A stretch of 64,000 nucleotides of DNA from an uncultured Gemmatimonadota bacterium (lineage in GTDB: Bacteria; Gemmatimonadota; Gemmatimonadetes; Gemmatimonadales; Gemmatimonadaceae), in NCBI GenBank assembly GCA_902826615.1, contig CADEFN010000005.1, positions 124,001-188,000 of the forward strand, written 5' to 3'. A program made the translations under genes and the position numbers. Below, one piece after another: positions 4,496 through 8,561 of this stretch (positions are counted from its first letter, which is position 1; each line of letters begins with the position of its first letter). The notes under the pieces are model-generated. The model was given only the letters and a program-made list of their open reading frames with translations. It did no database searches and was not told the origin of the DNA.

Positions 4496-5533
4496 CTATC
4501 GCGCGGGTGCGGGCTCCTGCTGCGAGAGGCAGTGCAGGGTACCAAGCCCCCACACGAGGTCCACGGCATGGATGCCCACGATCTCGCGTCCCGGAAAACA
4601 CTCGGCGAGCAGATTGAGCGCGTCGCGGTCGCGTTTGTCGTTGAAGGTGGGCACGATCACGATGTCGTTGGCGACGTAGAAGTTGGCGTACGACGCCGGG
4701 AGGCGTTGTCCGTCCATCATCACGGGCCGCGGGTAGGGCAGCGTGAGCACACGGAGTTCGGCACCCGAGAGCGCGATTCGACGAAGGTTGTCCGCCGAAC
4801 GCCTGTGATTTTCGTCGGCGGGGTCTTCCTCATGCGCCAGCACAACGGTCCATGGATCGATGAAGCGCGCGATGTCGTCGATATGCCCATGCGTGTCGTC
4901 GCCCACACACCCCTCGCCAAGCCAGATGGTGCGCTCGACGCCGAGGTAGTCGCGGAAGACCTGTTCGTAGCCTTCGCGGGTGAGGCCCGGGTTGCGCTCC
5001 TGCACGTTGGAGAGGAGACACTCTTCGGTGACCATGAAGAGTCCGGCACCGTTGGTTTCGATGGCGCCACCCTCGAGCACGACGCGGCCGCCTCCATCGG
5101 GCCGCATGGGTTCCATCAGCGGATGCCCCGTGATGCGGGCCATCGCCTTGCCGGCGTCGGCGTCGAGCGAATAGTTGTCGTACTTGGCCCAGGCGTTGAA
5201 TCGCCAGCTGGCCAGTGTTGGTTTGCCGCTGGCGTCGTGCACGACGGTGGGGAGGGAATCGCGCAGCCAACCCCGGTCGTATGGCACCACATGGAGGTTG
5301 TAGCCTTCAGGGTTGCAGTGATGTGCTTCGAGTTTTGCCCGTGCGTCCTCAGCCACCGATTGGGTGTGACAGAGGATTTCCACGCGTTCGTGCACATGGA
5401 GTGCCCGCACGATCTCCGCGTACACCCAGGGGATCGGCTCGAGTTTACCCGGCCAGTCTGGCTCGTGATGCGGCCAGGCGATCCATGTGGCGGCGTGCGG
5501 CTCCCACTCCGCCGGCATTCGGTACTTTGTCAC
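4496..5533 (-). CDS. aguA: Agmatine deiminase AguA
   Basis: Hydrolyses agmatine to N-carbamoylputrescine and ammonia, in the cytoplasm. It has the pentein-fold hallmarks: PAEWEPHAATWIAWPH at the N-terminus, GDDTHGHIDD near residue 213, and the catalytic Cys335 in GLGTLHCLSQQ close to the C-terminus. The length of 345 residues fits the family. The annotated start is a GTG at 5533; an ATG five codons later is an alternative. It follows aguB with a 3-bp gap, in the same operon order as the pathway partner, so together they convert agmatine to putrescine. Confidence 0.95.
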   Translation of the reverse strand: MTKYRMPAEWEPHAATWIAWPHHEPDWPGKLEPIPWVYAEIVRALHVHERVEILCHTQSVAEDARAKLEAHHCNPEGYNLHVVPYDRGWLRDSLPTVVHDASGKPTLASWRFNAWAKYDNYSLDADAGKAMARITGHPLMEPMRPDGGGRVVLEGGAIETNGAGLFMVTEECLLSNVQERNPGLTREGYEQVFRDYLGVERTIWLGEGCVGDDTHGHIDDIARFIDPWTVVLAHEEDPADENHRRSADNLRRIALSGAELRVLTLPYPRPVMMDGQRLPASYANFYVANDIVIVPTFNDKRDRDALNLLAECFPGREIVGIHAVDLVWGLGTLHCLSQQEPAPAR

Positions 5534-6472: not shown

Positions 6473-7705
6473 CTATCGTGTTTGCGGCAAGGATGAGGCG
6501 CTCGGACTGATCGCGACGAGAAGGTCGCAAACGTTGGTGCCCGTCGGGCCTGTGCGAAACAGCGCCTGTGCCGTATCGAGTGCGGCGTAGGCTCGGTGCG
6601 CCGCGAGGTCGGCGTCGGGGTCGCGTCCCAGCAATTCGATGGTACTCCACGTCGTGCCGTCGACGATCGCGCCGGCGGCGTCCGTGGGGCCATCGCGGCC
6701 ATCAGTGCCCGCTATCAGCACTGTCCAATCGGTGCCCGCGATCTCACGGGCCAGCGCCAGCGCCAACTCCTGGCAGCGGCCACCAGGTGGTGCGTCGCGC
6801 GGGAGTGTTACCGTGGTCTCACCTGACGCGACGAAGCTCCCGGACACGATATCGTTCAGGGTTCGAGCCAGCTCGGCCGCCGCGAGCGTGGCTTCGCCCA
6901 GCATCGAGCGCGGCATGACTGGCGGGACGCCCAGATCGCGCAAGGCATTCACGGCGGCCCACATCGCGTCGTCACAGCCGGCGACAATTCGGTCCGTCGC
7001 CAGTGGCGCAATCAATGGAGCGCTGCGGTCGAGGTACGGCCGGACGGCGGCAGGAAGTCTGCTGGCCAGCTCACGCAGGATTGGCTGCGGATGTTCTTCT
7101 GGGTGACAGGGTCCCGAACCCACCGTCGAGGCAAGACTGCTGACGACGTCGGAGACGATCAAGCAGTGAACACGTGCGGGGGCGAGCGCCATCGCAAGGC
7201 GACCGTCGGCCCATCGCAGGAGACGACGCCGCACCCCGTTGATCGCGTCGATGTCCGCACCACTTGCAAGCAGGTGTGCAAAGGTCGAGCGCAGGTCGTC
7301 GTCGTCGAGGGGTTCGATTGGTGCGGCGATGAGGCTAGTGGTGCCGCCGGAAACCAGCACCAGCACGTCGGTGACACCGGCGTGTGTGGCGATGAGGTCG
7401 CCGATGGCCTCGGCGGCACGCCGGGAGTTGTCGCCCGGCACCGGGTGATCGCCCCTGAGGTGTGGCAAGCCGCCAACCGAAACAGGTTCTCCCGTGTGGG
7501 AGACGACGAGTCCGCCTGCCGCACCATTCGGCAGCGCCGAGAGCGCCCCCTCGGCCATGGCCACGGCGGCTTTTCCTACGGCGAGAACAAGGGGTGGGGC
7601 AAGCAGCGACAACTCGCCCGTTGCCGCTGCGGTGACATCGCGCGGATTGCAGGCACGGACAGCGGCGAAGTACGCCGCCTGCACCAACGCATGGGGTGAC
7701 GACAC
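6473..7705 (-). CDS. Glycerate kinase, MOFRL family
   Basis: A 410-residue glycerate kinase of the GckA/TtuD type (two-domain DUF4147 plus MOFRL), predicted to make 2-phosphoglycerate from D-glycerate and ATP. Seen in the sequence: AVGKAAVAMAEGAL near the N-terminus, LVSGGTTSLIAAP, and a C-terminal MOFRL-like region ending GTDGRDGPTDAAGAIVDG. The start is a GTG at 7705. It sits just downstream of a terminator for the peroxiredoxin gene and leads the aguB-aguA genes. No metabolic link between glycerate and agmatine is obvious, so co-transcription may reflect simple adjacency. Confidence 0.9.
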   Translation of the reverse strand: MSSPHALVQAAYFAAVRACNPRDVTAAATGELSLLAPPLVLAVGKAAVAMAEGALSALPNGAAGGLVVSHTGEPVSVGGLPHLRGDHPVPGDNSRRAAEAIGDLIATHAGVTDVLVLVSGGTTSLIAAPIEPLDDDDLRSTFAHLLASGADIDAINGVRRRLLRWADGRLAMALAPARVHCLIVSDVVSSLASTVGSGPCHPEEHPQPILRELASRLPAAVRPYLDRSAPLIAPLATDRIVAGCDDAMWAAVNALRDLGVPPVMPRSMLGEATLAAAELARTLNDIVSGSFVASGETTVTLPRDAPPGGRCQELALALAREIAGTDWTVLIAGTDGRDGPTDAAGAIVDGTTWSTIELLGRDPDADLAAHRAYAALDTAQALFRTGPTGTNVCDLLVAISPSASSLPQTR

Positions 7706-7762: not shown

Positions 7763-8344
7763 CTACTTGTTGCCGGGCGGTGGCGAGATCTTGTCGATCA
7801 CTGCCCCCAGCTCGGTGTAGGCGTCCTCCGCCATTTGCCGGAAGGGTTGTGCCTTGTACACGATCTTGCCGTCGGGACCGATCACATAGAGCGATCGGTT
7901 GTCCATCTGGGTCTGCGCATTGTAGGCGCCATACGCGGTGCCCACCTTGCCGCCGGGATCCGTAGCAAACACGACGGGGAAGTCCGCGTCGCGTGCCCAC
8001 GAAGCCAGGGCCGTATCAGGATCAACGCTGATCCCGATCACCGTCACCTTGCGGCCGTTGTTGAAGAGCGTGGCGTACTGATCACGGTACGCCTCCATTT
8101 GGACTGTTCAACCCTTGGTCCGCGCCTTGAAAAAGAAGGCGAGCACCACCGTGTTGCCGCGATAGCTGGAAAGCTTCACCTGGTCGCGGAGGATGCCGTA
8201 GCGCGTGGCACCACCAAGTGAAAAGTCGGGCGCCGCGTCACCAATTTTCGGCCCGGCTTCGGCCGCTTGTGCGCGGAGCGCAGTCGGGGCCGTCAGTGCG
8301 AGTAATGCCGCACCCAACACCCCAACCGTCCTGGAACGACGCAT
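7763..8344 (-). CDS. Exported peroxiredoxin with in-frame TGA (Sec79)
   Basis: A 193-residue AhpC/TSA-type peroxiredoxin read through a TGA at codon 79 (8108-8110). Residues 1-26 are a signal peptide ending ALRAQ. IGDAAPDFSL opens the thioredoxin fold, followed by VVLAFFFKARTKG-U-TVQMEAYRDQ. The U falls exactly where peroxiredoxins carry the peroxidatic Cys (family pattern F.PKA.T.GCT). The halves on either side of the TGA are in the same frame with no gap. The rest contains no cysteine at all, so this would be a 1-Sec enzyme reducing peroxides outside the cytoplasm. A perfect hairpin follows the TGA (see the SECIS entry). Alternatives are a nonsense mutation or a sequencing error. The conserved sequence on both sides and the intact terminator argue against decay. 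Confidence 0.85.
8072..8110 (-). promoter_or_regulatory. Candidate bacterial SECIS element (peroxiredoxin)
   Basis: Reading the minus strand from the TGA at 8110-8108: 14 nt of spacer, then a perfect 7-bp stem GGCGUAC/GUACGCC (8093-8087 with 8078-8072) closing an 8-nt loop CGUGAUCA. The loop starts 21 nt after the UGA and has G as its second base, matching what is known of SelB-bound hairpins in bacteria. It is entirely within the coding sequence, as expected for bacterial SECIS elements. Confidence 0.75.
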
Positions 8345-8561
8345 TCGTGCTGCTCCCGAGGAAGTTGCGGTTGAAGATGGTCACGGTGCTGCCTGAAGGG
8401 GAGGGTGCGGTTGTCAAACGAAAGCGTCGCGACGTCCGCCGACATAGACACCGGCTTGACCCATCTCGGTGACACCCGCGCCCGTAACTCCATATGCTGC
8501 AACGCAGGACACTCGGGCACGTCGGGTGCACAGGGGAGGGCATCCCGCAAAGGAGCTCTCT

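Follow-up and report, generated by a model that had tools for sequence, protein, structure and literature searches.

The window, i.e. the whole stretch of 64,000 nucleotides analysed here (G000:C5:124001-188000), contains a reading frame that resembles a peroxiredoxin and carries a TGA codon exactly where the peroxidatic cysteine would be expected. The locus therefore raises the question whether it is a broken gene or a gene for a selenoprotein, and in the latter case what its product does and how it is recycled. We consider it very probable that it is a selenoprotein gene encoding an exported, AhpE/PrxQ-like peroxidase with a single selenocysteine (Sec), which depends on an outside thiol reductant and has a Cys-containing counterpart in genomes without Sec decoding.

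The reading frame and its product

The initial annotation had described a frame broken by TGA alone at codon 79, without naming the strand. Translation confirmed this for the minus strand (8344-7763, a single 193-codon frame with this TGA as its sole break), while nothing is encoded in the plus-strand reading suggested by the bare coordinates. With TGA read as Sec (U), the product (MRRSRTVGV...FFFKARTKGUTVQMEAYRDQ...PPPGNK) comprises 193 residues with Sec at position 79 and contains no Cys at all, again as claimed. A plain ORF list reports at this gene just a 111-aa tail starting from Met83 (7763-8098), in agreement with the earlier warning that annotation would truncate it; since no NCBIfam equivalog covers the gene, public annotations probably do so. 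The features of the locus are collected in Table 1. A homologue of the glycerate-kinase-type neighbour is found next after the peroxiredoxin in 29 of 123 loci, and this neighbour is probably outside the peroxiredoxin's function.

Table 1. Features of the peroxiredoxin locus (window coordinates) and the evidence for each.
Feature	Position	Strand	Evidence
Probable exported selenocysteine peroxiredoxin CDS, 193 codons + stop, TGA79 read as Sec	7763..8344	-	Translation; Pfam AhpC-TSA 95.3 bits, E 3.4e-27; orthologues
In-frame TGA, predicted Sec79, peroxidatic Cys position	8108..8110	-	101 TGA and 24 TGC/TGT orthologues; aligns with M. tuberculosis AhpE Cys45
SECIS hairpin: 7-bp stem (8093-8087 with 8078-8072), loop CGUGAUCA (8086-8079)	8072..8093	-	Near-invariance in Sec genes, loss in Cys genes, compensatory changes, bSECIS model (PMC13188914)
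Probable Sec-type signal peptide MRRSRTVGVLGAALLALTAPTALRA^QA	8270..8344	-	Sequence; orthologue N-termini; low-confidence N-terminus in model
Shine-Dalgarno-like GGGAG, 8 nt before ATG	8353..8357	-	Sequence
R150 codon, catalytic-arginine equivalent, invariant	7895..7897	-	Invariant alignment column; aligned on AhpE R116
Terminator-like inverted repeat GCGACCCGGC-loop-GCCGGGTCGC then TTTGTATTT, directly past the stop codon	7727..7751	-	Sequence, by eye
Downstream neighbour, glycerate-2-kinase (MOFRL) type	6473..7705	-	ORF list; family assigned from sequence by eye

The profile search places the protein well above the Pfam AhpC-TSA cut-off of 26 (95.3 bits, E 3.4e-27). An alignment of 75 sequences shows no variation at C/U79 and R150 and hardly any at T76, i.e. 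both the T/S-x-x-C/U motif and the catalytic Arg of AhpC/TSA peroxiredoxins are present. The structure nearest to the AlphaFold model (mean pLDDT 90.9, with a low-confidence N-terminus) is AhpE of Mycobacterium tuberculosis (Z 24.0, rmsd 1.5 over 148 residues), and in the sequence alignment U79 falls on C45 of AhpE and R150 on its R116 (numbering by hand). The one departure from the PxxxTxxC pattern is a Phe in place of the Pro (codon 72, 8131-8129); nonetheless, the protein still belongs to the superfamily on account of its domain score and the rest of its active-site residues. This Pro is found in 42 of 42 Cys orthologues versus 27 of 113 Sec orthologues, and it is possible that selenium relaxes the need for it. 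Every independent contrast in which proline and Sec/Cys differ goes the expected way; as there are just 3-4 of them (p 0.25), we do not take it as shown that Sec leads to the loss of the proline.

A hydrophobic N-terminal stretch occurs in all 125 of 125 orthologues, and 120 of the 125 have an AxA/Q-like cleavage site (identified by a heuristic, not by SignalP). A probable signal peptide, in keeping with the original claim of an exported protein, is thus found in this sequence and likewise across the orthologues. The window protein has no resolving Cys and corresponds to the 1-Cys (here 1-Sec) type. The mature domain is free of Cys in 82 of 101 Sec orthologues, most of the others having one Cys near the C-terminus. 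A lone Sec as the redox residue, also proposed at the outset, fits the closest fold, which is that of a 1-Cys peroxiredoxin.

Decoding of the TGA codon and the SECIS hairpin

The search for Sec machinery that had been suggested as a check retrieved all components from the same genome, each above its curated cut-off: selA (523.8 bits, cut-off 268), selB (343 bits, cut-off 242), selD (379.8 bits), which has an in-frame TGA of its own, and the tRNA-Sec (C3:14732; 66.3 bits, cut-off 47), with a UCA anticodon loop and located ~0.1 kb from selD.

An orthologue of the peroxiredoxin was found in 55 of 60 relatives; the phylum is Gemmatimonadota. The 28 best-scoring orthologues outside the genome under study contain exactly one TGA each. 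The comparison with Cys homologues, likewise called for in the initial annotation, gave after de-duplication 101 orthologues with TGA and 24 with TGC/TGT in the column of codon 79 (first round), and 113 with TGA and 42 with Cys after the set was enlarged; Longimicrobiales records are among the orthologues. The in-frame UGA therefore takes the place of a Cys in homologues and recurs in other organisms, as is characteristic of selenoprotein genes.

Co-occurrence with selA was analysed in 141 Gemmatimonadota genomes that are >=90% complete and whose matches were among those listed from 249 genomes. Among these matches, 115 genomes combine the TGA form with selA, 5 have the TGA form without selA, 2 have only the Cys form together with selA, and 19 have only the Cys form and no selA; that is, the TGA form goes with selA in 115 of 120 cases and the Cys-only state goes without it in 19 of 21 (odds ratio 218, Fisher p 5e-17, with shared ancestry left in). 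The Sec form swaps for the Cys form in genomes where the selenium machinery was not found. The five TGA genomes without a selA match are G136, G153, G164, G195 and G216. The missing selA is perhaps due to incompleteness, and these cases may represent missing contigs or decaying genes. In G195 the gene (G195:C89:23860-24405, L171) has TGA and an intact hairpin, and the genome has a Cys copy too.

The hairpin GGCGUAC-CGUGAUCA-GUACGCC (8093-8072) consists of a 7-bp stem without mismatch and a loop of 8 nt, and its first paired base is the 15th nucleotide after the UGA, exactly as originally described. Its MFE alone is -10.3 kcal/mol, and the 51-nt context has a z of -2.2 relative to shuffles. The bSECIS model (PMC13188914) specifies a loop of 3-9 nt, a stem of 4-16 bp, a G at loop position 1 or 2, a UGA-to-loop distance of 16-37 nt and an MFE of at most -7.5; with a loop of 8 beginning CGU, a stem of 7, a distance of 21 nt and -10.3 kcal/mol, the proposed SECIS agrees with the model on every count.

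Comparison of the orthologues provides further evidence for the SECIS. The loop CGTGATCA, which 109 of 113 Sec genes carry, is absent from the loops that are most common in Cys genes. Across the Sec genes the codons GCG-TAC-CGT-GAT-CAG-TAC hardly vary (100, 101, 100, 99, 101 and 99 of 101, respectively), while elsewhere in the same genes CGT accounts for 10% of the Arg codons and GAT for 32% of the Asp codons; the 20-nt core of the SECIS is almost frozen against the codon usage of the rest of the gene. At the corresponding codons the Cys orthologues use CGC (20/24) and GAC (19/24). Of the 101 Sec genes, 83 can form all seven stem pairs and 18 form six; in the Cys genes, where the SECIS is decayed, all seven can form in 2 of 24. 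The outermost pair of the Sec genes is G-C in 67 cases, C-G in 10 and U-A in 5, with 14 A-A mismatches in addition, and its mutual information is 0.69 versus a shuffle maximum of 0.15 (in a test that ignores shared ancestry). In L109 pair four is changed from G-C to A-U in a compensatory manner, and in L182 pair two shows the same change at the cost of two amino-acid substitutions, so that the stem is supported by compensatory changes at three pairs. The Gln codon at +3 after the TGA is CAA in 86 of 101 Sec genes versus CAG in 22 of 24 Cys genes; the constraint therefore extends upstream of the hairpin.

These data bear on two alternatives. A pseudogene or a sequencing error, with a Cys codon lost or misread and a protein that stops at codon 78, would agree with the stop codon that breaks the frame of this one genome, but the TGA is common to about 110 distinct orthologues, the protein is conserved on both sides of it and the hairpin that follows shows constraint at synonymous sites, a degree of conservation by which we consider this explanation already refuted. 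In particular, a sequencing error, which the initial annotation had named as a potential pitfall, is excluded because about 110 distinct orthologues share the identical codon; errors of MAG assembly are conceivable at single loci and cannot create the overall pattern. A point against Sec insertion is that UGA79 is followed by A, which makes a good termination context. That TGA specifies some other residue, through a TGA=Trp code or a suppressor, has a negligible probability: no support for it was found, the column holds Cys in homologues and never Trp, the distribution of the TGA form follows that of selA, the gene has a SECIS, and the tRNA match at C3:14732 is a tRNA-Sec adjoining selD.

Predicted mechanism and candidate reductant

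Because of the machinery, the SECIS and the pattern among the orthologues, we infer that Sec is inserted into the product. SelB bound to the hairpin just past UGA79 would deliver Sec-tRNA-Sec, and the ribosome would insert Sec instead of terminating. The signal peptide would direct the export of the product, predicted from sequence to be periplasmic and to adopt an AhpE/PrxQ-like fold. The predicted activity is that of a peroxidase: the selenol of Sec79, held by T76 and R150, would attack the peroxide and be converted to a selenenic acid. As the protein has neither a second Cys nor a second Sec, the selenenic acid would have to be reduced by an outside thiol, i.e. by a one-Sec mechanism. In genomes without Sec decoding the enzyme would operate with Cys, its SECIS being decayed.

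A selenoprotein of this fold could also be a periplasmic thiol:disulfide exchanger and not a peroxide scavenger. AhpC-TSA domains include oxidoreductases of the ResA/TlpA type, a weak NCBIfam match to ResA was found, and the thioredoxin and CcdA genes that adjoin the peroxiredoxin in some genomes (see below) would suit general thiol chemistry. However, two redox residues are usually required for thiol exchange, and the protein has TxxU without a CxxC or UxxC pair; moreover, the catalytic Arg is invariant and the closest fold is that of a 1-Cys peroxiredoxin. We therefore find a thiol exchanger improbable and favor the peroxidase.

The genomic neighborhood provides a clue as to the electron donor of the predicted peroxidase. 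Two family groups of the order and one Longimicrobiales record together contribute 14 loci in which the peroxiredoxin is convergent with a gene for a CcdA/DsbD-type membrane protein, which is followed by a gene for an exported WCxxC thioredoxin. A homologous thioredoxin-CcdA pair, with a signal peptide and a WCENC motif, is encoded elsewhere in the genome under study (G000:C1:937340). On account of this 14-locus pairing and the homologous pair, the thioredoxin-CcdA relay is the first candidate for the reductant: electrons would most likely come from the exported thioredoxin, fed by the CcdA/DsbD-type protein. We considered and rejected a Sec residue in the neighboring CcdA/DsbD gene, the stop codon of which is TGA, TAA or TAG depending on the locus with nothing homologous following it; the thioredoxin is encoded by a separate WCxxC gene.

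The link to the relay is suggested by synteny in a minority of the loci, and the thioredoxin-CcdA pair is possibly the reductant. A serious competitor, which we rate at somewhat below an even chance, is that a small-molecule thiol regenerates the enzyme, or that the enzyme is sacrificial. The pair is not adjacent in most loci, the window included, and AhpE, the nearest fold, meets outside thiols (mycothiol, according to the title of the structure entry). Against this stand the homologous pair with its signal peptide and WCENC motif in this very genome, and the adjacency of the pair to the gene in lineages as distant as the two family groups and the Longimicrobiales record. On a larger scale we speculate, with considerable doubt, that the peroxiredoxin serves throughout the phylum as an extracytoplasmic one-Sec peroxidase supplied with electrons by CcdA and thioredoxin, that the SECIS loop has been fixed as a recognition sequence for the SelB of Gemmatimonadota and that Sec has removed the need for the active-site proline, which is universal otherwise.

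Evolution and comparison with known systems

Quick trees of the family require 5-7 changes between Sec and Cys; the root, and hence the direction of change, is unsure, as the outgroup branches are long. One lineage has tandem Cys and Sec copies of the exported peroxiredoxin, whose matched stretches are separated by 12-45 nt (G023:C19:42098-43194, L057; also in G083, G089, G106, G115, G183 and G247), and six of the tandem Cys copies constitute a supported clade of their own. If our reading is correct, a cell with such a pair would have both a selenium-dependent and a selenium-independent form of the enzyme, and the interchange of the two forms with the presence of the Sec machinery would be a natural experiment on the benefit of selenium to a peroxidase.

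Most cultured Gemmatimonadota are aerobes from soil. Among selenoproteins, Sec peroxiredoxins of the TxxU type are well established as a family ("Peroxiredoxin TxxU"; PMC9312934, PMC13188914). The reviews consulted make no mention of Gemmatimonadota. An earlier survey (PMC1794560) tied the Sec peroxiredoxins mainly to anaerobes and reported 12 proteins, with 5 Cys-to-Sec changes and no Sec-to-Cys change; the set of Sec peroxiredoxins described here is about ten times larger. In the open-access literature we found no relevant paper on selenoproteins of Gemmatimonadota, and neither an exported Sec subfamily free of a resolving Cys nor its spread through the phylum. What is new is this exported subfamily, spread in Gemmatimonadota, together with its frozen SECIS and the tandem Sec/Cys pairs.

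With PrxU of Eubacterium acidaminophilum (NCBIfam NF040737) the window protein shares the AhpC/TSA fold, the Sec in a T-x-x-U motif and a bacterial SECIS just downstream, but it differs by its signal peptide and by the lack of a second Cys. It scores 58.7 bits against the PrxU equivalog, far below the cut-off of 270, and is thus not a member of the PrxU subfamily. AhpE, a cytosolic 1-Cys enzyme, is the best structural match, with C45 and R116 aligned to U79 and R150; however, the identity is 26-27%, AhpE uses Cys, and the window protein has Phe for the Pro of PxxxTxxC.

BCP/PrxQ peroxiredoxins are similar in the active-site segment and in the position of the TGA, as seen in a second Sec peroxiredoxin gene of the same genome, outside the window (G000:C5:434732-435121; L003 1489-1950). 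This is a leaderless BCP/PrxQ-type protein (YPRADTPG-U-TVEAC) with TGA at the peroxidatic position and a strong hairpin of its own after it, encoded between argF-like and gcvT-like genes. BCP proteins differ in having the resolving Cys five residues on (TVEAC), where the exported enzyme has TVQME. Outside Gemmatimonadota the exported Sec type exists too, in an Acidobacteria MAG (L150; MWZA01000008, TGA at 5127): its protein, at 36% identity, has a signal peptide and the motif FTGG-U-TKEL and lacks a resolving Cys beside the active site, and the TGA is followed by a hairpin which, unlike that of the window gene, contains a bulged U.
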